Source of the DNA: a virus
Reading direction: 5' to 3' (one strand)
Virus record (IMG/VR): IMGVR_UViG_3300032770_000044
Span: 1 to 42,660 of that record
Length of the DNA: 42,660 bases
How positions within the stretch are numbered: the first letter of the stretch is position 1; each line of letters starts with the position of its first letter. Shown one piece after another: positions 7,074-42,660 of the stretch. The notes beneath the pieces were generated by a model. The model searched no databases, was not told the origin of the DNA, and was given only the letters and a program-made list of their open reading frames with translations. Both the position numbers and the translations under genes were made by a program.

Positions 7074-7546
7074 TCGTTCACCCCGTGGTATTGGTAGCCA
7101 AGGTCGACTTCTTTCTCGTGGCCGAATACGAAACCGCCGCGGTAGAACCTATGCGGGCCGGCAATCACTCTCTCGGCGTTGGCTTGTAGGCACCGATGGA
7201 CGATATGGGCCGGCGGTGGGTAGTTCGGGTCGAGGATTAGGAGATGCGCCCCGATCAGGTCGGCGCGATCGGCAAATCCCTTGAAGTCGTTCTCGGTATT
7301 CCTGGCATGGCCAAACATGACGTGAACTCTAGGCCAAGCATTACATGCCTTCAGGATGCCTACGAGGGCCAACACGAAGTCGCTGGAGAACTTGTCGCTC
7401 GGGTCGCTGATGCCGATGGCGACTTCGTGGCCGTGGTTGCGCCGCGGCTCGACTTTGGGATTTTTGACATAACTGGAGGTAGTATCGGTCAAGAAATCGT
7501 CCTCGAAGTAAGAAGGGTGGCCGGGTATTTCAAATGCTCTGGTCAA
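7070..7546 (-). CDS. Degenerate glycosyltransferase-like paralogue, 158 aa
   Basis: The order of motifs mirrors the adjacent 214-aa enzyme: an N-terminal Val-Ala-Ile-Gly-Ile strand, Ala-Arg-Asn, then Leu-Leu-Ile-Leu-Asp-Pro-Asn-Tyr where the neighbour has Leu-Asp-Val-Asp, then Pro-Pro-Ala-His-Ile and Val-Ile-Ala-Gly-Pro-His-Arg-Phe-Tyr-Arg. The second Asp of DxD is Asn and the C-terminal acceptor region is missing, so it is probably inactive or a partner subunit. The start is TTG at 7544-7546 behind GGGAG, overlapping the large terminase stop as TTGA. Confidence 0.6.
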   Translation of the reverse strand: MTRAFEIPGHPSYFEDDFLTDTTSSYVKNPKVEPRRNHGHEVAIGISDPSDKFSSDFVLALVGILKACNAWPRVHVMFGHARNTENDFKGFADRADLIGAHLLILDPNYPPPAHIVHRCLQANAERVIAGPHRFYRGGFVFGHEKEVDLGYQYHGVNE

Positions 7547-9069
7547 TTGGTTTCTCCCAAGATGCGGAATTTCTGGCCGTCAATCTCCGCATATTTTGCG
7601 TAGCTTTCCCGGTACGGGTCCCAGGGGTCGGCATCCAAGCCTTCAGCTATCTGGACATGGCCGCGAACCGAATGCTTGCCGATCCTCTCGGCGGTTCGGG
7701 AATAGCGGAGCATCATATGCGCATACCGCGCCGCGGAAATCAAGTCGTCGTCTATCGCGACCGGCTTGCCTTTCTTGCGGTTGTACTTGCCCATCTCGCC
7801 AATGAGCTTCTGACAGTTGTCGAAAACCTTGAACCGGCCATCGGCGATGCGCTCACGAATGTCGGAGATCGAGGCTTCCAGGTTGTTCTTGCGGTCGTCG
7901 GGATACTGGGCATGCTCGCCGCACATGCTCATGCCCTCGGCCTTGTAGGTCTCCATCTTGGTCACGCCGCTGCCCGGGCCGGTACGCTGTCCCATATCGT
8001 GCGGCCAAGCGACCTTGGCGCCCGGAATGAAGCGCCGAACCCAGGAGGCAACGATTGCCGCCGGGCAATCCTTCTCGCGAAACTCTTGGACGACGTAGGT
8101 GGTATCCTCGTCCTCGACCCAACCGAGGAGCACGACGGCGGTAGGGTGGTCGGTGCCGTAGTCCATAGCGTAGAGGTAGCGGGTATGCGGGGGCAGCCGC
8201 GTGACCGGAACCACGTAGTGATCCTCGGTGAACGGGAAGACCGCGCCTTCGCCAAGGGCGGGCAGGCCGTGGATACGAGCGCGCCATTGGTGCGGGGCCG
8301 GGTAGTCTTTCTTGACCTTCTCGATGTCCGCGGCCAGCTCCGGGTAATCCGCCATGTCGATGTGGATGCAGGAGTATTGGTCGGGGTACTTCGGGTCTGG
8401 GAAGAACTCCTTGGTCAGCCGGGTCTCGCCCTCCAGCGGGGTATAGGTAATCATCAGCTTGCCCTGGCGGTCGCGGAGGCGGGTCTTGATTTCCTCGACG
8501 ATGCCGGCTTCCTGCTCCGTGACGAGCGGCTCCTCGTCCATCCAGGCCAAATCGAGCGCAGCGCCCTGGAGAGCCACGCGGCCCTGATTGTAGGCCTTGA
8601 AGGTGACATTCGAGATGCCACCTGAGACATGCTTGACCCGAACGATGCCAGCGGCGCCTGGGGAACCCGGTTGGGTGAACACGTTGTCGATGGCATCCTT
8701 GGGTATAGCGCCGGTCCCATACTCGACCCCTAGGAGGAGCGCCTGACAGGCATCCCGCATCTGGGCGTAGGACGTGCCGATGACCCAGCAGTCGATCGGC
8801 TTCTCGAACCTAAAACCCTTCCACCAGTCGGGATATCGGCCGGTGACGTGCATGGCGAACTCCATGGCGCCGGCATAGGTCTTGCCGATCCGGTTAGGGG
8901 CCATATACATACGGAAGCGGTGCGGGTCTTCGTGGAACGGCACCTGCCAGGCTCGCGGCCGATAGGCGGCCAACTGGTTGTACTTGATCTTCTCCTTGGC
9001 CGCCGCCCGGTCACGGAGCCATTTCTGCTTCTGGGCCTCGGTAAACGTCCGGGGGTCTATGGCCGTCAT
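7543..9069 (-). CDS. terL: Terminase large subunit
   Basis: The 508-aa ATPase-nuclease pumps DNA into the prohead. A Walker A variant Ala-Pro-Asn-Arg-Ile-Gly-Lys-Thr lies near residues 58-65. A Walker B-like Asp-Leu-Ala-Trp-Met-Asp-Glu-Glu is near 165. The C-terminal RNase H-like nuclease shows Tyr-Ala-Met-Asp-Tyr-Gly-Thr-Asp and, near the end, Ala-Ile-Asp-Asp-Asp-Leu-Ile-Ser-Ala. ATG at 9067-9069 is chosen because it overlaps the upstream stop and has a purine-rich AAGAAAAG ahead; a longer reading from 9135 would overlap the 79-aa gene. Length fits T7-type podovirus TerL. Confidence 0.93.
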   Translation of the reverse strand: MTAIDPRTFTEAQKQKWLRDRAAAKEKIKYNQLAAYRPRAWQVPFHEDPHRFRMYMAPNRIGKTYAGAMEFAMHVTGRYPDWWKGFRFEKPIDCWVIGTSYAQMRDACQALLLGVEYGTGAIPKDAIDNVFTQPGSPGAAGIVRVKHVSGGISNVTFKAYNQGRVALQGAALDLAWMDEEPLVTEQEAGIVEEIKTRLRDRQGKLMITYTPLEGETRLTKEFFPDPKYPDQYSCIHIDMADYPELAADIEKVKKDYPAPHQWRARIHGLPALGEGAVFPFTEDHYVVPVTRLPPHTRYLYAMDYGTDHPTAVVLLGWVEDEDTTYVVQEFREKDCPAAIVASWVRRFIPGAKVAWPHDMGQRTGPGSGVTKMETYKAEGMSMCGEHAQYPDDRKNNLEASISDIRERIADGRFKVFDNCQKLIGEMGKYNRKKGKPVAIDDDLISAARYAHMMLRYSRTAERIGKHSVRGHVQIAEGLDADPWDPYRESYAKYAEIDGQKFRILGETN

Positions 9070-9305
9070 GCTTTTCTTGCCGCCTTGCGCAGTTTCTTTT
9101 TCAGGGCCTTCTTTTCCGGCTCCGCCACACTGCAATCCTTCAAGCCGAGCTTCTTGTCCAGCTTCTCCAGCAATTCTATGACTTTCAGCATAAGCGCGGC
9201 ATTATCGGCTTGCTCGGGAGGGATCACTGGTTGGGTAACCCAAGGAATGAAATTAGGGGAGCTTGGAAGTATCCAGTCTTTGATAACCATGCTTACTGCG
9301 CACAT
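9066..9305 (-). CDS. Small protein between the terminase genes, 79 aa
   Basis: ATG at 9303-9305 follows a GGAGG ribosome site embedded in the 3' end of the upstream gene. The N-terminal half is hydrophobic with several Pro; the C-terminal half is a Leu/Lys-rich amphipathic helix ending in a highly basic tail. It overlaps the large terminase start by four bases. No family recognised; an accessory role in packaging is inferred only from position. Confidence 0.6.
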   Translation of the reverse strand: MCAVSMVIKDWILPSSPNFIPWVTQPVIPPEQADNAALMLKVIELLEKLDKKLGLKDCSVAEPEKKALKKKLRKAARKA

Positions 9306-10046
9306 TTACATGTCCTCCTCGAACTCGAACTTGGGCAGCTTCTTGACGGGCGGGACCAACCGCTTCTTGGGAGGCCTGCCGCGACGCGGGCGATCCGGGC
9401 GCTGTTCCTTCAGCACATAGTCCGGCCCGGCGTTCTTGTCGTGGCGGCGGCGCTTGAACTCCGCGTTCACGCTTTGATCGCCAACAAGGCGGTTGTGCTC
9501 GGGCAGGCGGGTCTCGGGTCGGGTCTTGGGCGGCAACTCGACGTACTCGACATACTCGACCTCCAGCACCTCCTGGCCCATCTCCTTCAGCTCTTTGATG
9601 AACTTCTCGTCCAGGGCCTTGCCGGTCAGGGTGACTTCGTGCTCGACCCGGATGTTCTGCCCTTTGGCCAAGGAGCCGCCCTCGCCGTGCTCGAGGACGG
9701 TCTTGATGGTATTAGTGAGGACGTTTCCCGAGGAATTGTCCAATTGCTGGTCGAGTTTATGTAGCGCCTTCTGGCGGAGGGCCACGAACTGGCGGGCGGT
9801 AAACTGGGCTATGGCGCCAGAGATTTTGCCGCTGTGTAGGAGCGCCCAGGCATTCTGGGCTGAGCCGCCATAACCGGCGCGCTGGTAGGCCATCCAGGCG
9901 ATGTTGTAGTTCGACTGCTTCTCTCCGGCGGCGTCCAGCTCCAGTTGTATCTGGAACCAGTTGGTGACGAAGGCCAGTTGCTTCGGCGTCAATTCGTCGT
10001 AGGCTCTGACCGGCCGGTCTAGTTCTGTAGGGAGGTTTTGATCCAT
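9306..10046 (-). CDS. terS: Terminase small subunit with AT-hook-like tail
   Basis: The N-terminal 100 residues carry the small-terminase helix-turn-helix pattern: Leu-Thr-Pro-Lys-Gln-Leu-Ala-Phe, then Tyr-Gln-Arg-Ala-Gly-Tyr-Gly-Gly-Ser-Ala-Gln-Asn-Ala and Gly-Ala-Ile-Ala-Gln. A central Glu/Lys helix region follows, with a Val-Glu-Tyr-Val-Glu-Tyr-Val-Glu repeat. The tail has Arg-Arg-Gly-Arg-Pro-Pro-Lys-Lys, an AT-hook core that would bind the minor groove, and ends acidic. At 246 aa it is long for the family. ATG at 10044-10046 has no ribosome site, but a promoter ends 7 bp upstream, so the mRNA may be leaderless. Confidence 0.75.
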   Translation of the reverse strand: MDQNLPTELDRPVRAYDELTPKQLAFVTNWFQIQLELDAAGEKQSNYNIAWMAYQRAGYGGSAQNAWALLHSGKISGAIAQFTARQFVALRQKALHKLDQQLDNSSGNVLTNTIKTVLEHGEGGSLAKGQNIRVEHEVTLTGKALDEKFIKELKEMGQEVLEVEYVEYVELPPKTRPETRLPEHNRLVGDQSVNAEFKRRRHDKNAGPDYVLKEQRPDRPRRGRPPKKRLVPPVKKLPKFEFEEDM

Positions 10047-10053
10047 GGGTGTA

Positions 10054-10083
10054 TTTATTTCACGGATTGTCCTTGTTTGTCAA
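10054..10083 (-). promoter_or_regulatory. Sigma70-like promoter for the terminase operon
   Basis: On the minus strand TTGACA (10083-10078), an 18-bp spacer and AATAAA (10059-10054; 4 of 6) place the transcript start at 10047-10046, that is at the A of the small terminase ATG. The spacer shares its first five bases (AACAA) and a later GTGA with the promoter at 11631. Confidence 0.6.
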
Positions 10084-10273
10084 TGGGTCTCTTTATCGTC
10101 CGGTGATTTTGATGGCCAAACTACGGATTAGGAACGTGCGACCCTGCAGAAGGATTGGATCGCCGGATGGCAGCGTGTGGTACCCCGGTCTATTTCGATA
10201 ACCATTTTGACACAATACATCGCGGCACGCGAGTTGCATCGTGCGGCAGTAACCTGGCCAAATGGAGACAGAC

Positions 10274-10360
10274 ATGCACTGGGAAGACAAATTGTCATGG
10301 ATTTACGTAGCTGTGTTCATCTTGGGCATCGGCATAAAATTGGGCGAACATGGGCTATGA
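10274..10360 (+). CDS. Tiny single-span membrane peptide, 28 aa
   Basis: ATG at 10274 follows GGAG by six bases. The peptide starts with Met-His-Trp-Glu-Asp-Lys, has one hydrophobic helix (about residues 9-22, Trp-Ile-Tyr-Val-Ala-Val-Phe-Ile-Leu-Gly-Ile-Gly-Ile) and ends Gly-Glu-His-Gly-Leu. No family recognised. The good ribosome site and clean transmembrane helix are the only support; it is the first possible early gene. Confidence 0.4.
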   Translation: MHWEDKLSWIYVAVFILGIGIKLGEHGL

Positions 10361-10369
10361 CGCAATAAT
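10340..10369 (+). promoter_or_regulatory. Candidate early promoter
   Basis: TTGGGC (10340-10345) and AATAAT (10364-10369) are separated by 18 bp, the spacing seen at the other promoters here. The -10 matches 5 of 6, the -35 only the TTG. It could drive the 79-aa gene. Confidence 0.33.
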
Positions 10370-10582
10370 GTTGCGCAGTTGCGTGGTTTTCGTGCAACAA
10401 GTGTGCGTGAAAAGCCACAAGTAGGGCATGAGTTGGGCAACACGATACAAATAATCGGCGAAAATACCTCGAAAGATCACGGGGATTTTTCAACGCTGTG
10501 AAAATATGGCACAAACAATGCAATTAAATGATAGAAAACCAAATTGAGACGCGGAGTTAGTTGTGCGATCGCCACCATTAGC

Positions 10583-10822
10583 ATGAACCCCAAAGAGCGC
10601 TTGGCCACTCTAAAGCTGCTATTGAAACGCGAGGATTTGCAAATCGTCCGTGCGTTCATTTGCACCGGCAATTGTGCTCATGTGATAGAGCGAACAATCA
10701 AAAGCCGGCTAAAGCATTTGGCCAAGGGCGCAGAATGGTACGATATTTCGACTGAAGAAATTCGCGGATTTGCGGAAAATACGCTAGAAGAATGGATGCA
10801 AACGCGTTTCGTATCTGACTAA
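10583..10822 (+). CDS. Small helical early protein, 79 aa
   Basis: Charged helical protein with Lys-Glu-Arg-Leu, a Leu-Leu-Lys-Arg-Glu-Asp-Leu segment, a Cys-Thr-Gly-Asn-Cys pair and an acidic Glu-Glu-Ile-Arg-Gly-Phe region. ATG at 10583 is used; the frame is open from a TTG at 10544, and GGAG lies between the two, so the true start is uncertain. No family recognised. Position at the head of the plus-strand arm suggests early expression. Confidence 0.55.
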   Translation: MNPKERLATLKLLLKREDLQIVRAFICTGNCAHVIERTIKSRLKHLAKGAEWYDISTEEIRGFAENTLEEWMQTRFVSD

Positions 10823-10838
10823 GTGTCATATTTTCCGT

Positions 10839-10868
10839 TTGACAAGCGAATTACTCGCACGATATGTA
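10839..10868 (+). promoter_or_regulatory. Sigma70-like early promoter
   Basis: TTGACA (10839-10844), 18-bp spacer, TATGTA (10863-10868; 3 of 6). The spacer contains a GCGA-ATTAC-TCGC dyad (10846-10858). The predicted start near 10875 lies 25 bases before the ATG of the 45-aa gene. Confidence 0.45.
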
Positions 10869-29552: not shown

Positions 29553-30515
29553 TTACTGGAAATCCCATTCGACGGCAAACCAAGTGGCACCACTAGTCCA
29601 TGATACACTATCGCCATTGCTCGGTGAAGTGCTATCTATATACCCGCGGGCGCTGGCGGTTAATGACCCCCATTGACCGGGGAACGGCGGCGCTCCTGTT
29701 CCCGTATTCGCTACCAAGTGATTGACCGCGGTAGTCGTGCTGTCCGTTCTCGACACGCCGACATACCAGTTATCGGCGCTATTCATCTGAACGCCGCTAT
29801 CGAATGTGAACCATATGAACTGAGTGCCGGACCCAGAGAAGGAATAAGTATTGTCGGAGAGCGTAGCTCCTGCCGTCAATGTAATGCCGGAAGTTCCCGA
29901 GCCGGACATTGGCGCAAGAACGCCGACGTAAGTTTCCCCACTGCCTGCCGCCGTGATCCAGAAGCCTATGCCGTAGACGATGATGTCTGCGCCGACAACG
30001 GCTCTGGTCCCCTTGGTAGCATGGGAACTGCCGTCCGCCGTCAAGGTCGACGGGCCGCCCGTGCTGCCGGTCTTGTGGTTGGTGCCTCCACCACCACCAC
30101 CCCCGCCTCCGCTGCCCCCGGTTAGGTCGAGCGGCCAGCGGTCCATGATCTTGTCCAGGCCGGGCGGAGACGATCCGCCGCTAGCATCCGCCCATGACGG
30201 GTCTGCCGCCGCGCCGCCGGTCGTCAATACTTGGCCCGATGTTCCAGGCGCCAATGCTTCCCAAGCAGATGCGCCGCGATACAAAATGTCGCCCTGCGTT
30301 GCATCTATCTTGTCGAGTATCCCGCTCGCGCCGCCTAGCTTGGCCAAGATGGCGGGAGCGTTTACACTCTGCCCGGCCTGGGCTATCACGCTGTCTATCT
30401 CGACAAGCTGGACCGAACCCTCGCCGCTGTCCGTGCGCCCGAGCAAATAGCCGCCGGGCACCGTCCCTCGGATGCCTCGCACAACTCTATTGGCTATGGT
30501 CTTGATGAGGTTCAT
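29553..30515 (-). CDS. Tail appendage/adhesin with poly-Gly linker, 320 aa
   Basis: Residues 1-120 hold short strands and the tail-fibre-type Gly-Asp-Ile-Leu-Tyr-Arg-Gly segment followed by Gly-Gln-Val-Leu. A Gly-Gly-Ser-Gly9 linker (about 134-145) separates a C-terminal beta domain with aromatic strands (Phe-Trp-Ile-Thr, Ile-Trp-Phe-Thr-Phe, Trp-Tyr-Val-Gly-Val). The linker suggests an exposed, mobile binding domain. ATG at 30513-30515 overlaps the upstream stop. Confidence 0.7.
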   Translation of the reverse strand: MNLIKTIANRVVRGIRGTVPGGYLLGRTDSGEGSVQLVEIDSVIAQAGQSVNAPAILAKLGGASGILDKIDATQGDILYRGASAWEALAPGTSGQVLTTGGAAADPSWADASGGSSPPGLDKIMDRWPLDLTGGSGGGGGGGGGTNHKTGSTGGPSTLTADGSSHATKGTRAVVGADIIVYGIGFWITAAGSGETYVGVLAPMSGSGTSGITLTAGATLSDNTYSFSGSGTQFIWFTFDSGVQMNSADNWYVGVSRTDSTTTAVNHLVANTGTGAPPFPGQWGSLTASARGYIDSTSPSNGDSVSWTSGATWFAVEWDFQ

Positions 30516-36996: not shown

Positions 36997-39900
36997 TCAC
37001 CCGTCATTCGTTTCTATGTGACCGCCAATGCCGGCCACGATTGCTGGGTAAGGCCGAGTGGCACGCCAGCTTATTTGAGCGTCGAAGTCCTCTTCGCCCT
37101 GAAGGTTCTGCGTCACGACGCCCGTAAACAGTGTCGGCGCGCTGGTGACATTGCCCGCGTCGTCGGCCATGGGTACGGCGTCCATTGTAGTGAAATCCGA
37201 GCCGATTTCCAAGCCTTGGGTAGTGACCACGGAAATCGAATACTTGTGGTTGCGCTTCTTCTTGCCGAAGCCCGGGCCGTTGGCAGCGCCGCCGTCCGGC
37301 GTGTCTGGCCGCAGCAATCTACCTTCCGATGTATAGGTGACGCCGATGCTGGCGGGCACGACGAATTGCTGACCGGCTGGCCAATCCGCCACGTCGGCGA
37401 TGGAGGGCCCGGTGTTACCATACATGGCCAATTGATTGCCGCCGGTTGGTGTCGTGCCGATGAGCGTCAGGTCTCCGGAGTTCACCGTCCATTCGAGGAT
37501 GCCGACAGTGGCATCTACCTCGGGTATGTACACGTTATCCTGAAACCCGAGAATGGAGCCGTTGAGGTTGGAGCTGGACGAGATCGTGGTATCCGCCACC
37601 AACATAGTGTTGATCTTCCAAGGATCGCCGCTAAGAGCCCAACGCAGAACTCCGCGCTTGCTCATCGGGTCGAAACTCTTGGGCGAGAACTCCAGCGTCG
37701 CGCTATCGTCTTCCCGCTTGTTGCTCAGTGCCGCGTTGGACGTGCTGACCTTCATGAAGTAGCCTTTGTGGCTCGACGCGGCACCGCTGTTGTTGGAGAC
37801 CAGGATCAAGCTGTTATTCGTCACATCGGCCGTGAAGTATGTTGCTAACGAGACGGGCGTAGTTGTCCAGGTAGCGTCTATCGACGACAACCCGATGGTG
37901 CCGATTTGAGTTATGACGATCTTGCCGGCTTGGATTTGCAGGCTGGACAGCGTGTAGGTCGTGGCTGTATAGCCAAGGACATAGGCCGTCGTATCATTCA
38001 TCTTAGCCACGTAGGTCTGACCGCCGCCGAACTTGGCAGCCGCCGCCCATCCTTGGCCGGTCATGGAGCCTGTATTGAGGACGACAATATCGCCGAACTC
38101 GCACTTGCCGATGAGATAATTGCCGAACTGCCCGCCGTCCGCCACGTCGGCAGACACATCGGCATCGCGTAGGCCTATGCCGTAGTCGATATGCTCGAAC
38201 CCGGAGAAGCTGTTCGTCAGCGTGTTGTTGTCGGTGCCGAAGCGCCCTGCGACCCTGAGCGTCGTGCTGTCCAGCTTCCACAGGACGTTGTTGTTGCCGT
38301 TGCCGGTGTTGCAGTAGAGATTACCGTCATAGCCTATCGACGGGTCTTGCGTGAAGTTGTCCGTCACAACATCGTTGGCATAGCCGCCGAAGACTTCGAG
38401 CAGCGTAGCGCTGCGCAAGAGTGTGCCTTTGACGAGATCGTAGACGCACCACACGCCGATACCGCCCGAGCCGTCGTTTAGGAAGGCATGAAGTAGACCG
38501 CGCTTCTGGTCCGCGTTCCAGCCAAGAACCGTGGTCTGGCCGTCAGGATACGGGTACCACATGATGAATGCCGACGTAAAGCCGACGCTGGATGGCGGCG
38601 AGACGGTCAGAGAGTACTGGCCATAGCTGCCGTCTAGCCCTTCGAGGAACGCTTCCGTAAACGTGTCCGTATATGGTATGTCGATGTGATCCGTAGAGAC
38701 TGTATAATCTCCCAGATCAAGACCGCCCAGGAACACAGAAACAGACTGGCCATCAACGACAGAAAGACCACTAATCCGAAGGCCATTGATGCTATCCCCG
38801 TTATCAGTCGATAGTTCTCTCGAACACGCTGGAGAAGCGATGCCGTCCACGAAGATTGCTTCATAGTTCTGGTATCCTTCGTCGAAAACCGGCGCCATGC
38901 CGTTGACCGTATAGTAACCGCTGGTCGGGTCATAGAGCACGGCGTATAGCGTGGTGCCGAGCCCGTCGAAGGTCGGCCCGGACGAAATGCTTGTGACCGT
39001 GCGCCCGCCACCAAGCTCGTGCTTGTGCCAGGCGTTGAAGTTGTTGGCCTGGTCGGCTTCGTGGTTGAACGTGGCGCCGACGAGCGAGCCGTCGTTCATC
39101 CGCATCCATATGTTCATCGACGGCTCTTGCTGCCAACGGATTTCCGCTATGCCGCTGCCGGTCAAATGGCTCGTGTACTTGGCCAGGTTCGTAGCGTCCC
39201 AGCCGGCAACCTCGCCGTATGGATAGTCATAATAGTCGAGCAGCTTGCGCGCTTCTCGCTGGACGAAGACCTGAGTGTTCGACGCCTTGAGCGGCTCGAT
39301 GTTGGCGCAACCGTATGTCGAGGTCTGCTTCCATTGGATGTTGGATGGCGAGAGCGGATCGCCGATCTGGGTCGCGCGGATGAGCCACTCCCCAGAGCGG
39401 GCACCAACGAGGATGCCGCGGTCGGTGGAGAGCAGCCAGTAGATGATATTGTTGTCGGCGGCGTTCATCACAGCGCTGATTGCGTTGGCGTCCGCCACCG
39501 TGCCGTCGCTTCCAGTCGGCGCAAAGTTGAATGGGTCGTTCGACACGCTGGCGTCGATGCGGTTGGAGTTCAACCCGGCAATCCATAAGCGGCCTTCATG
39601 GTAGACGCCGCAGGTCGGCCAGCCGGTTCCATTGGAGTAGACGCCAAGCTGCCATTGCGTAGTCGCTGCCGTAGATGTCAAATCCTCGCCTTCGATCGTC
39701 GCCGTGACGACGGTGGTTGACGTGATGGCCGTAATCTCGGCCCAGGACCATACGACTGTAGTGCCGGACAATACCCAGTAGGTACCATCGTCGGTTGTCG
39801 GATCGTGATCCGTGTTGCCGCCAATGACGCTGGTGTAGATGTTGTTGTCGCTGCCGAGCACGGTGGCCGCGGTAGCATAGGTCGTCCCACTATTCCACGC

Positions 39901-40797
39901 GGCGGGCGCGCTCTGGATGCGTACGAGGCGGCCTACGTCGCCATTGGAGAAGCCGGCGCCGTCGTTGATACCTGCCGTCGAGCTGAAGGTCAACGTGACG
40001 CTGCCTGTCTCGGCGCTCGGCGTTACGGTTGTGGTCGTGGTATTGATGTCAAGATACGGGCCATCGGAGAAGGATTGCGCGTCAAGCTCGAAAGCGCCGT
40101 TAGTGAGAGTGAGCGATTGAGGCTGCGTCTCGCCTTGGAACAGGGTCAACACGCCTGGCGTCTGCACCGCGCGAACGGAGTTCCAGTTGTCGGCGCTGCC
40201 CCATGGCGTAGTCAGTTCGAATATCTTGTAGACTTGATCCAGGCTGCCGGCTGGTTGGCTATACGCCACGGAGCTGCCATCCACGGCTTCACCGGTGAAG
40301 CTATCGTACAGGGTGAAGGTCGAGGTCGAGACGCTCTGGAGGGTGAACTGGCGCCCGGCTAATTGCGGGACCGTTGACGGCGAGCCGCCAAGCCCGAGCA
40401 TGACCGTATCCCCATCGGCCCAGCCGGACGGCAGATTGCCCGTCACCGTGATCTGAAGCGGCGTCGCTGTGTTCATGGACGAGATGATAACTTGATCGTC
40501 CGTCAGAAGCGGCCCGAGCCCCTTCAGGATGCGCAGGTAGCCATCGCTCAGGATCAGGTTGTACGGATCGCTGAAGTTGAAGTCGAACGAGATGACGCGC
40601 GCCGGTAGGCCCTTGCGAGTGTGGCAGCCATACATGAGCCCGGGGCGCCGCAGCCAGACCTCGGAATTGGCATCCGGCATGGCGTTGAGGCACGTATCCA
40701 GCGCCCGCTTGTAGTTCGGGTCGTGGATGCGGTGCGCAGCCTTTGGCCCCCACTCGCCGCCCAAGAAGCTATTCTGAAGGTATGTCGCGCGGGCCAT
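36997..40797 (-). CDS. Tail tubular protein B with an inserted carbohydrate-binding-like module, 1266 aa
   Basis: The N-terminal Asn-Ser-Phe-Leu-Gly-Gly-Glu-Trp-Gly and Arg-Arg-Pro-Gly-Leu match the podovirus nozzle protein (T7 gp12, 794 aa), but this one is much longer. Residues about 300-343 (Ala-Trp-Asn-Ser-Gly-Thr-Thr-Tyr...Asn-Ile-Tyr-Thr-Ser...His-Asp-Pro-Thr-Thr...Tyr-Trp) form a CBM5/12-like module also seen three times in tail tubular A. The C-terminal half, beta-rich with Trp/Gly repeats, is an extension. It forms the tail tube nozzle. Confidence 0.8.
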   Translation of the reverse strand: MARATYLQNSFLGGEWGPKAAHRIHDPNYKRALDTCLNAMPDANSEVWLRRPGLMYGCHTRKGLPARVISFDFNFSDPYNLILSDGYLRILKGLGPLLTDDQVIISSMNTATPLQITVTGNLPSGWADGDTVMLGLGGSPSTVPQLAGRQFTLQSVSTSTFTLYDSFTGEAVDGSSVAYSQPAGSLDQVYKIFELTTPWGSADNWNSVRAVQTPGVLTLFQGETQPQSLTLTNGAFELDAQSFSDGPYLDINTTTTTVTPSAETGSVTLTFSSTAGINDGAGFSNGDVGRLVRIQSAPAAWNSGTTYATAATVLGSDNNIYTSVIGGNTDHDPTTDDGTYWVLSGTTVVWSWAEITAITSTTVVTATIEGEDLTSTAATTQWQLGVYSNGTGWPTCGVYHEGRLWIAGLNSNRIDASVSNDPFNFAPTGSDGTVADANAISAVMNAADNNIIYWLLSTDRGILVGARSGEWLIRATQIGDPLSPSNIQWKQTSTYGCANIEPLKASNTQVFVQREARKLLDYYDYPYGEVAGWDATNLAKYTSHLTGSGIAEIRWQQEPSMNIWMRMNDGSLVGATFNHEADQANNFNAWHKHELGGGRTVTSISSGPTFDGLGTTLYAVLYDPTSGYYTVNGMAPVFDEGYQNYEAIFVDGIASPACSRELSTDNGDSINGLRISGLSVVDGQSVSVFLGGLDLGDYTVSTDHIDIPYTDTFTEAFLEGLDGSYGQYSLTVSPPSSVGFTSAFIMWYPYPDGQTTVLGWNADQKRGLLHAFLNDGSGGIGVWCVYDLVKGTLLRSATLLEVFGGYANDVVTDNFTQDPSIGYDGNLYCNTGNGNNNVLWKLDSTTLRVAGRFGTDNNTLTNSFSGFEHIDYGIGLRDADVSADVADGGQFGNYLIGKCEFGDIVVLNTGSMTGQGWAAAAKFGGGQTYVAKMNDTTAYVLGYTATTYTLSSLQIQAGKIVITQIGTIGLSSIDATWTTTPVSLATYFTADVTNNSLILVSNNSGAASSHKGYFMKVSTSNAALSNKREDDSATLEFSPKSFDPMSKRGVLRWALSGDPWKINTMLVADTTISSSSNLNGSILGFQDNVYIPEVDATVGILEWTVNSGDLTLIGTTPTGGNQLAMYGNTGPSIADVADWPAGQQFVVPASIGVTYTSEGRLLRPDTPDGGAANGPGFGKKKRNHKYSISVVTTQGLEIGSDFTTMDAVPMADDAGNVTSAPTLFTGVVTQNLQGEEDFDAQISWRATRPYPAIVAGIGGHIETNDG

Positions 40798-40798
40798 A

Positions 40799-41947
40799 TC
40801 AGTAACGAACCTGAATGTACATGTCCTCCGGCGGCTCGGTTGGGCCAGTCTCGATGCCGTTCACCAGCCGTGCCTCGGTCATGAAGCCGGTGTACTCGCC
40901 AAGAATGGAAGCCCGGAGCGCGGCGTTCTGCGTCGTCGGCTGCGTGATGGCGTGGCCGATACGCGCGGCGAAACCTTCCGCAAACATGGGATCGAACAGA
41001 GATGGGTCGTCTATGTCTGCCACGAAGCGGAGCGCGATCGGCCCCGGTGTGTTCGACGTGAGGTAATCGTTCTCGAACTCCCAATCGTCGTAGGTCAGCT
41101 TCGACGGAGCGCCGAGCCATTGCTGGCTGCCCTGCTTTGGCGCCTGCGGGGCTTCTCGAAGGAACCCATTCGGCAGCCGAAAGGCATTACGGGTTTCCGT
41201 GTTGCTCGACGGGCCGGTGCCGATAGGATAGATGAAGTTCGTGGCCGAGAGCGATGGCGCCGTGCTGAGTGCCAGCCAGTTGCCGGCAGAGGGCGGGATA
41301 TTCGTATTGCCGCTGATGAGCGACAGGTAGACGTTGCGTCCAATATAGACGAGTTCGCCGGCATAGAACGATACGCCCCCGGACGCGCTGTAGGCTTCCA
41401 AGCCGGTCGTGTCCAATGCCCAATGCACGCCGCCGTCTGTCGTCGGATCGTGATTGACATTACCATCCGACAGGGAGGTGTAGACATCGCCGTTGCTACC
41501 GACCGAGGACATGCCGGTGTCATAGGTGATTGCTGTCGAGAAAGTCGTTATCATCTCGAATGCGGCGTCTTGGCCAAAGTACAGGCCCCAGTACGAGAAC
41601 AAGCGCGTACTCGGATCGTGAGCCGTATTGCCGGAAACCTTGGAGTAGTAGATGCGGCCATCGCTGCCGAGCACCACATCGTTGACGGCGTAAGTCGTGC
41701 CGGATGCCCACGCACCAAAGGTGACAAGGCGGCTGGTAGCATCAAGCGCGCGAAGGATAGTCGTGCGGATGGCGAAGCGCCAGACATTGCGGCGCAACTC
41801 AGCGCGCCGTAACGAATGGTAACAATTCTGGATTTCGACGGCGGTCTTGGTCGTCTGTGTCCAGAGATTGGTCAGCGGGTTGCCGCCGGTTGAGAATTGG
41901 ATCGCCCGGTTGGCTATACCCGTTTCACTTGTTGTAATGTAGGACAT
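40799..41947 (-). CDS. Tail tubular protein A with three inserted carbohydrate-binding-like modules, 382 aa
   Basis: The N-terminal 70 residues (Ile-Gln-Asn-Cys-Tyr, Ala-Glu-Leu-Arg-Arg-Asn-Val-Trp-Arg-Phe-Ala) and the C-terminal part with Leu-Thr-Tyr-Asp-Asp-Trp-Glu-Phe-Glu-Asn match podovirus tail tubular A (T7 gp11, 196 aa). Residues about 78-122, 136-178 and 190-228 are three related modules with Tyr, Gly-Ser-Asp-Gly, Tyr, Gly-Asn, Asp-Pro, Trp positions, like CBM5/12. ATG at 41945-41947 overlaps the upstream stop. It connects the portal to the nozzle. Confidence 0.82.
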   Translation of the reverse strand: MSYITTSETGIANRAIQFSTGGNPLTNLWTQTTKTAVEIQNCYHSLRRAELRRNVWRFAIRTTILRALDATSRLVTFGAWASGTTYAVNDVVLGSDGRIYYSKVSGNTAHDPSTRLFSYWGLYFGQDAAFEMITTFSTAITYDTGMSSVGSNGDVYTSLSDGNVNHDPTTDGGVHWALDTTGLEAYSASGGVSFYAGELVYIGRNVYLSLISGNTNIPPSAGNWLALSTAPSLSATNFIYPIGTGPSSNTETRNAFRLPNGFLREAPQAPKQGSQQWLGAPSKLTYDDWEFENDYLTSNTPGPIALRFVADIDDPSLFDPMFAEGFAARIGHAITQPTTQNAALRASILGEYTGFMTEARLVNGIETGPTEPPEDMYIQVRY

Positions 41948-42660
41948 CAGTACACATTCGTCCCTAGCGAAGTCATGTAGTTGTTGAATGCTGTAGATAC
42001 CGCGGCAGCTTGAGTGCCAGTCATCCCGCTCGCCGCAAAAGCAATTGCTATCTGGTCGGAAGAAAACTCTTGTGCTGTGCCATTATTGTTGTAGGCCAGC
42101 AGCAGCAGATTGACCGCTGCTGTAGCCACGGAAGCAGTGCCATCGGTCGAACCGGCAGAACCATTTATATACGGAACAGTGGTCGAGCTAGCAGTTCTGG
42201 AGCCTATAAACATGCCTTGCGAAGTCGTATTGGACACATCTTGGTTCGTACTGGCATTTACATTAAAATAATAGTTACTGCCGAAGTTAGGATTTATCTT
42301 TATTGATTTTGTCGCTGCCGCCGTTCCACATCCGAGCAACATTTTATCTGCTGCTGCTCGGCTCGTTCTATTGTAGCCGCCAACACTACCGGAGTTACGA
42401 GTGAACTTTACAGCATTCGTGCCGGGCTGCCAGCCAGTGTCGAAATACGCCGCGGAACCGTCGCCTGCATAGCCCTGGTTAGAGGTGAATGTTGGCGAGC
42501 CGTGCGCGGTCAAATCGTATGTGCCGGGGCTGGCCCAATTCTTTATGGCGTTGTCGGCATACTGTGCCGCCAGGACATACAGGAGATCGAATGCTTGATT
42601 TAGGGCAGTGATACCGAGAGCGGAATACAGAGCGCCAACTAGGGTATCTATGTACCCTTT
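41947..42660 (-). CDS. Jelly-roll (LamG-like) structural/adhesin protein, C-terminal part; begins at 262
   Basis: This part encodes residues 46-282 of the protein that starts at 262 (the last 127 bases duplicate 1-127). After the helical linker, residues about 100-250 form a beta-rich concanavalin-like domain (Ser-Pro-Thr-Phe, Gly-Tyr-Ala-Gly-Asp-Gly-Ser, Tyr-Phe-Asp-Thr-Gly-Trp, Met-Phe-Ile-Gly-Ser-Arg, Leu-Leu-Leu-Ala-Tyr-Asn). The C-terminal helix has Ala-Ala-Ala-Val-Ser-Thr-Ala-Phe-Asn-Asn-Tyr. The stop overlaps the tail tubular A ATG. Probable glycan-binding virion protein. Confidence 0.75.
   Translation of the reverse strand, partial: KGYIDTLVGALYSALGITALNQAFDLLYVLAAQYADNAIKNWASPGTYDLTAHGSPTFTSNQGYAGDGSAAYFDTGWQPGTNAVKFTRNSGSVGGYNRTSRAAADKMLLGCGTAAATKSIKINPNFGSNYYFNVNASTNQDVSNTTSQGMFIGSRTASSTTVPYINGSAGSTDGTASVATAAVNLLLLAYNNNGTAQEFSSDQIAIAFAASGMTGTQAAAVSTAFNNYMTSLGTNVY
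42534..42660. repeat. Terminal direct repeat, right copy (contig overlap)
   Basis: These 127 bases are identical to 1-127. They show the contig closes into a circle of 42,533 bp. Confidence 0.95.

Follow-up and report, generated by a model that had tools for sequence, protein, structure and literature searches.

The window, that is, the whole stretch of DNA analysed here, is an IMG/VR virus record of 42,660 bases. An exact direct repeat of 127 bases is common to both of its ends (1-127 and 42534-42660) and an open frame spans the junction, running from 262 to 1 and resuming at the opposite end to 41947. These two features probably mark the record as a complete genome with an arbitrary cut point. 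It encodes a terminase, a portal, a protease, a major head protein, a head-tail adaptor, a nozzle and internal virion proteins, and the nozzles most similar to its own belong to ct8d5349 and to Pelagibacter phages, among them HTVC035P and HTVC010P. A putative tail-region protein, characterized by a run of nine glycines and with no family match, lies at 29553-30515 on the minus strand. The present analysis is centered on the adaptor gene and on the nozzle gene directly downstream of it, whose features are the following:

36997-40797, minus strand: tail tubular protein B (TTPB) or nozzle, 1266 residues; phrog_376 with E=6.8e-104, and a structural model that matches nozzles
39769-39903, minus strand: fourth module, B1 (nozzle residues 299-343, preceded by the 'GDVGRLVRIQSAP' stretch); 47.4 bits, 54% identical to M1
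40799-41947, minus strand: tail tubular protein A (TTPA) or head-tail adaptor with inserted modules, 382 residues; phrog_394 with E=4.7e-26, AlphaFold2 and Foldseek
40802-41200, minus strand: C-terminal half of the adaptor (residues 250-382; remaining dock strands, helices alpha3 and alpha4); phrog_394 stretch 248-382, model strands within 254-310, helices 320-338 and 342-363
41270-41395, minus strand: module M3, more divergent (residues 185-226); 26.1 bits
41414-41548, minus strand: module M2, CBM5/12-like (residues 134-178); 32.3 bits, M1/M2 alignment equalled in 0 of 1000 shuffles
41582-41716, minus strand: module M1, CBM5/12-like (residues 78-122); 46.4 bits, PF02839 with E=0.2 over residues 79-93 only
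41750-41947, minus strand: N-terminal half of the adaptor (residues 1-66; helices alpha1 and alpha2, first dock strand); alignment with short adaptors, model helices 8-19 and 34-53, strand 60-65

The product of the open reading frame at 40799-41947 is a podovirus head-tail adaptor, which would, as in T7, form a 12-fold ring on the portal. The phrog_394 profile (tail protein) matches it in two stretches that cover both halves, the best one spanning residues 248-382. Moreover, an AlphaFold2 monomer model, based on an alignment of 22 sequences, reached a pLDDT of 80 and a pTM of 0.79, with the modules mostly above 90 and M3 lower. When this model was compared to the PDB with Foldseek, adaptor-type structures were retrieved, namely 8ck1_E (7.7e-06) and 9efk_AA (5.2e-05, TMt 0.66), with further matches to 8vb4, PhiM1, KP32 (5mu4) and T7 gp11, showing that the adaptor fold, composed of a helix bundle and a beta domain, is present in the protein. 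These results agree with the first-pass annotation, which had named the product tail tubular protein A and had judged its T7 homologue to be about half as long: T7 gp11 counts 196 residues versus the 382 of the window adaptor. In the Pfam search the protein matched no enzyme family, and none among 50,697 phage records covered 80% of it.

The position of the additional segment can be defined rather precisely. In alignments with short adaptors of 190-207 residues, the insert follows a tryptophan located towards the end of helix 2 and precedes the 'LP' strand, and the nearest short adaptor, that of phage ct8d5349 (190 residues), is devoid of the entire segment and carries the loop 'ANSTTPAWGRAN' at the equivalent site. 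The modules are thus flanked by the two conserved halves, as had been proposed, and the alignment, the AlphaFold2 model and Foldseek all indicate that the adaptor fold closes around them. In the model, almost all of the beta structure is found between helices 2 and 3, and in T7 the fibres dock on the external beta domain of the adaptor, which is a small jelly roll (PMC6702177). Taking together the position of the insert, the location of the beta structure and that of the T7 dock, our reading is that the first loop of the domain equivalent to the T7 fibre dock accommodates the modules. From this insertion site we infer that they would be exposed in the assembled ring. In a profile alignment to T7 gp11 the N-terminal half lines up as expected, at a score without significance. 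As for the origin of the insert, its GC and GC3 values are close to those of the flanks, and a recent horizontal gain, of which no sign appeared, was rejected.

Three homologous copies of a module of about 45 residues occupy residues 78-226 of the adaptor, in line with the three similar modules first noticed at about 78-228. To score them, a module profile was built from the modules of other phages only, with the window sequences excluded. All three copies exceed by far the best value obtained in 2000 shuffles of the region (14.4 bits). The M1/M2 alignment scores 72 versus a shuffled mean of 24, and the alignments of M1 and M2 with M3 are weaker, being equalled by 1 and 4 of 1000 shuffles, respectively. 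The pattern of tyrosine, glycine, Asp-Pro and tryptophan residues originally described holds for M1 and M2; M3 has no HDP motif and shows NIPP instead.

As to the kind of module, several comparisons converge on the CBM5/12 fold. Foldseek matches the modules to the CBM12 pairs of Vibrio chitin deacetylases (E=8.6e-04, prob 1.00), more weakly to Serratia chitinase B (E=0.15), and also to fibre or receptor-complex proteins of the Agrobacterium phages 7-7-1 and Milano. When the module profile was run against PDB sequences, nearly all the matches were CBM5/12 domains of chitinases and chitin deacetylases, with weak E values of 0.036-0.75. The Pfam family CBM_5_12 (PF02839) gives the window adaptor E=0.2 and 12.2 bits, under the cut-off of 26.2, and matches 15 of 22 homologous adaptors at E<=0.1, the best at 2.8e-12. 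The fold assignment made at first sight is thus supported by Pfam in the relatives and by Foldseek.

The residues responsible for chitin binding tell a different part of the story. In a CBM5 domain (CjCBM5), Y265 and W299 are the core aromatics, and the main chitin contacts come from the neighbouring residues Y282-W283 and from Y296 (PMC8449059). M1, M2 and B1 have in common with the CBM5/12 domains of chitinases and chitin deacetylases the fold, the core tyrosine and tryptophan, and their spacing of 34 residues (Y86/W120, Y142/W176 and Y307/W341, respectively); among the modules that cover each column, the core tyrosine is found in 89 of 89 and the final tryptophan in 60 of 60. Unlike the enzyme domains, they are carried by virion proteins and have no surface Y-W or W-W pair for chitin binding. 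Specifically, the positions of this pair, deduced by spacing, are occupied by K103-V104 in M1, L159-S160 in M2, L210-I211 in M3 and V324-I325 in B1, and the aromatic pair equivalent to Y282-W283 occurs in 0 of 94 modules. Conserved asparagine (79/85) and serine (77/88) residues mark the family. Judging from these residues, the modules have retained the fold and lost the canonical chitin face. Hence, of the exposed aromatic faces that binding would call for, the canonical CBM5 one is missing, and the similarity to the CBM fold is nonetheless present. The idea that the modules bind chitin or peptidoglycan sugars in the classical CBM5/12 manner, with which the first-pass annotation had started, can appeal to the fold and to the relation with Pfam, but with the Y-W/W-W pair replaced by K-V, L-S, L-I, V-I and the like, we consider it very improbable. 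A classical chitin-binding role was rejected on the same ground, and the chitin mode is probably not how the ligand is bound. The more general claim of sugar binding is weakened by the missing pair, which leaves room for another ligand or for another face of the module.

The same pattern could be accommodated by a purely structural function. In this case, the modules would act as a spacer or collar, packing on each other, on the portal or on the capsid vertex, thereby stabilising the neck and binding nothing outside the particle. The retention of the core residues, the loss of the canonical ligand residues and the prediction of the modules as compact units with high confidence are all consistent with such a role. 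What speaks against it comes from the second carrier of the module and from the relatives.

The second carrier is the nozzle. Its model (residues 1-720) matches the nozzle 8ck1_A at 2.1e-26, and also T7 gp12. The module B1, overlooked in the first reading, obtains its score with the profile from which the window sequences are excluded, and no module is found in open reading frames of the window other than those of the adaptor and the nozzle. In the module tree, B1 is closest to one adaptor module and one nozzle module of the same relative (L030). An attempt to place the nozzle module on the tip domain of T7 gp12 gave no mapping in the profile alignment.

The first relative with the same architecture (L016) was found by means of a DNA pattern for NTxHDPxTD; its TTPA has three modules and its TTPB at least one. 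A scan of IMG/VR with the resulting two-sequence alignment then gave the family, that is, 27 loci with matches starting in the adaptor core, including some duplicates, for about two dozen relatives. As one of the two patterns in the search derives from a module, adaptors with modules are over-represented in this set, a bias that touches the nozzle result less. IMG/VR scans with TTPA alone, TTPB alone or the module alone gave no confirmed match, and no relative was found in bacterial genomes. Matches in BFVD include mid-sized adaptor-like proteins as well as uncultured-phage proteins that bear the name 'ChiA1_BD domain containing', so that such architectures have probably been deposited in databases already.

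Among the relatives, complete adaptors range from 360 to 551 residues and carry 2-6 modules at the same site (very short partial matches being left out of the counts), and the order of module types varies from phage to phage. In two adaptors (L038 and L050), the middle of the slot is taken by a different domain (...PPAAPT...GALAARTYYVKVTYIT...ETLASAES...); that of L050 shows a weak match to phrog_8040, head closure. All of the 19 distinct readable nozzles carry the module, 16 of them at i-E<1e-3 and three weakly (0.0011-0.03), and 0 of 8 phages with short adaptors (183-207 residues) have modules, adaptor and nozzle both having been checked. The Carin 1 nozzle, whose residues align under the module in the profile alignment yet obtain no module-profile score, was not counted as a carrier. 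In the module tree, the adaptor and nozzle modules are intermingled. Related modules also occur in phage tail-fibre or uncharacterised proteins (phrog_9851, phrog_20878, phrog_6278), which are neither ring nor nozzle proteins. The changing number and order of the copies, their exchange between adaptor and nozzle genes and the occurrence of related modules in fibre proteins all look like decoration rather than packing, and we therefore hold the structural function to be improbable. Two relatives bear tandem adaptor (phrog_394) genes of different size, at 347-1687 and 1677-2675 in L038 and at 175-1224 and 1228-2637 in L049, and each gene carries modules or some other insert. With a 12-fold ring, one would not expect a second adaptor paralogue.

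The variable number and shuffled order of the modules, their exchange between adjacent virion genes, the other domains found in the slot and the relatives in fibre proteins point to a surface decoration under diversifying use. Our preferred explanation, to which we give about an even chance, is that the modules are an exchangeable, surface-exposed decoration that provides weak, multivalent contact with the host, accessory to the fibres. Three modules of CBM5/12 fold per adaptor sit in the first loop of the external beta domain, with a related module in the nozzle below. The modules, their fold class and site, their joint occurrence in both genes and their variable number and order are observed; the stoichiometry, the exposure in the ring and the binding to the host are what this explanation adds. 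With a ring of 12 subunits and a nozzle of 6, as in T7, a stoichiometry of about 36 + 6 modules per virion would surround the neck and the tail. They would hold the host surface weakly, many at once, and this contact would assist the fibres in holding or orienting the particle.

Known systems provide some parallels. In the 936 lactococcal siphophages, binding-type modules are likewise found in or on several structural virion proteins, including the neck (evolved Dit, TpeX and neck passage protein); CBM-bearing neck and tail proteins bind host cells weakly, isolated modules bound host cells, and multiplicity may help (PMC6669499). These phages differ in having Gram-positive hosts, BppA-like rather than CBM5/12 modules, and a neck module placed on a separate protein instead of the adaptor ring. 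In addition, the evolved Dit protein aids adsorption (PMC9128512), and the host membrane protein Vp0980 is a binding partner of both TTPA and TTPB in phage OWB (PMC7241545). Taken together, the 936 neck and tail proteins, the adsorption role of evolved Dit and the OWB interaction favor an accessory host-contact collar. The tail tubular protein of Vibrio phage VP2 (VP2p14, 741 residues) is, as in the window, an adaptor with adhesion-type extra domains, but these are Ig/Hoc-like and follow at the C-terminus of a complete adaptor (1-189), being neither inserted nor CBM-like. Consequently, the view that a sugar-binding collar is an unusual place for adhesion needs softening, with the 936 neck passage protein (PMC6669499) and the Hoc-like Ig domains of the VP2 adaptor as precedents. 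KP32 TTPA (PDB 5MU4) has the same fold as the window adaptor, and its beta region 57-99, at about the same position in the chain, was proposed to be lectin-like (PMC5440376); it differs in its 192 residues, in having no CBM5/12 modules and in its claimed activity, which is polysaccharide hydrolysis. In T7 gp11 the comparable domain is interpreted as the fibre dock (PMC6702177).

This last interpretation weighs against the decoration reading, as the insertion site is where the T7 fibres dock (PMC6702177) and the modules might serve the fibres, not the host. The modules of adaptor and nozzle would then form or extend an enlarged socket for tail fibres or spikes, binding phage proteins. We treat this as the main rival because both proteins carry modules and the T7 fibre sits between the dock domain of the adaptor and that of the nozzle (PMC6702177); the insertion in the equivalent adaptor domain and the loss of the chitin-binding aromatics fit as well. 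Nevertheless, two to six modules in varying order, with other domains in the slot, would be odd for a precise socket, and in the short-adaptor phages this core domain exists without modules. Moreover, the nozzle module falls within the first third of the chain, whereas the T7 nozzle dock comes after the propeller, a difference that may also speak against a socket, insofar as the two nozzles can be superposed. On balance, we rate the docking function as unlikely, if less so than the structural one. Returning to host contact, a more far-reaching hypothesis, which we put forward tentatively and hold to be somewhat short of an even chance, is that in this uncultured podovirus lineage adaptor ring and nozzle constitute a common adhesion collar, whose CBM5/12-fold modules, dozens on each particle, are quickly reshuffled and directed to a non-chitin ligand of the host surface, their number and order changing with the host.

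Receptor binding in short-tailed phages is usually credited to fibres and spikes alone. An array of modules on adaptor ring and nozzle would represent a second, high-copy contact surface near the DNA exit, and module shuffling a route of host adaptation overlooked by searches restricted to fibre genes. The finding also bears on reports of TTPA itself contacting sugars or host proteins. Binding modules inserted in or appended to structural proteins of the virion are familiar, as are adaptors that carry extra domains; what appears to be new is the CBM5/12 type on podovirus adaptor and nozzle, as the literature searched gave no description of a podovirus adaptor with an internal array of CBM5/12-fold modules alongside a module-bearing nozzle.

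The nozzles vary outside the module too. In the window nozzle, some 400 residues (about 741-1151) have no counterpart in several relatives (L040, L043, L048), in which the flanking segments are the same. The nozzles of L040, L042, L043, L047 and L048 have about 200 extra residues straight after the module site ('WTWGKIT...'), which by eye resemble a galactose-binding (F5/8-type) domain. Finally, the L041 nozzle (7255-10842) carries about 300 extra residues of W-N-G-x-x-F repeats ahead of the module site, with a weak match to BNR_2 (E=0.12).
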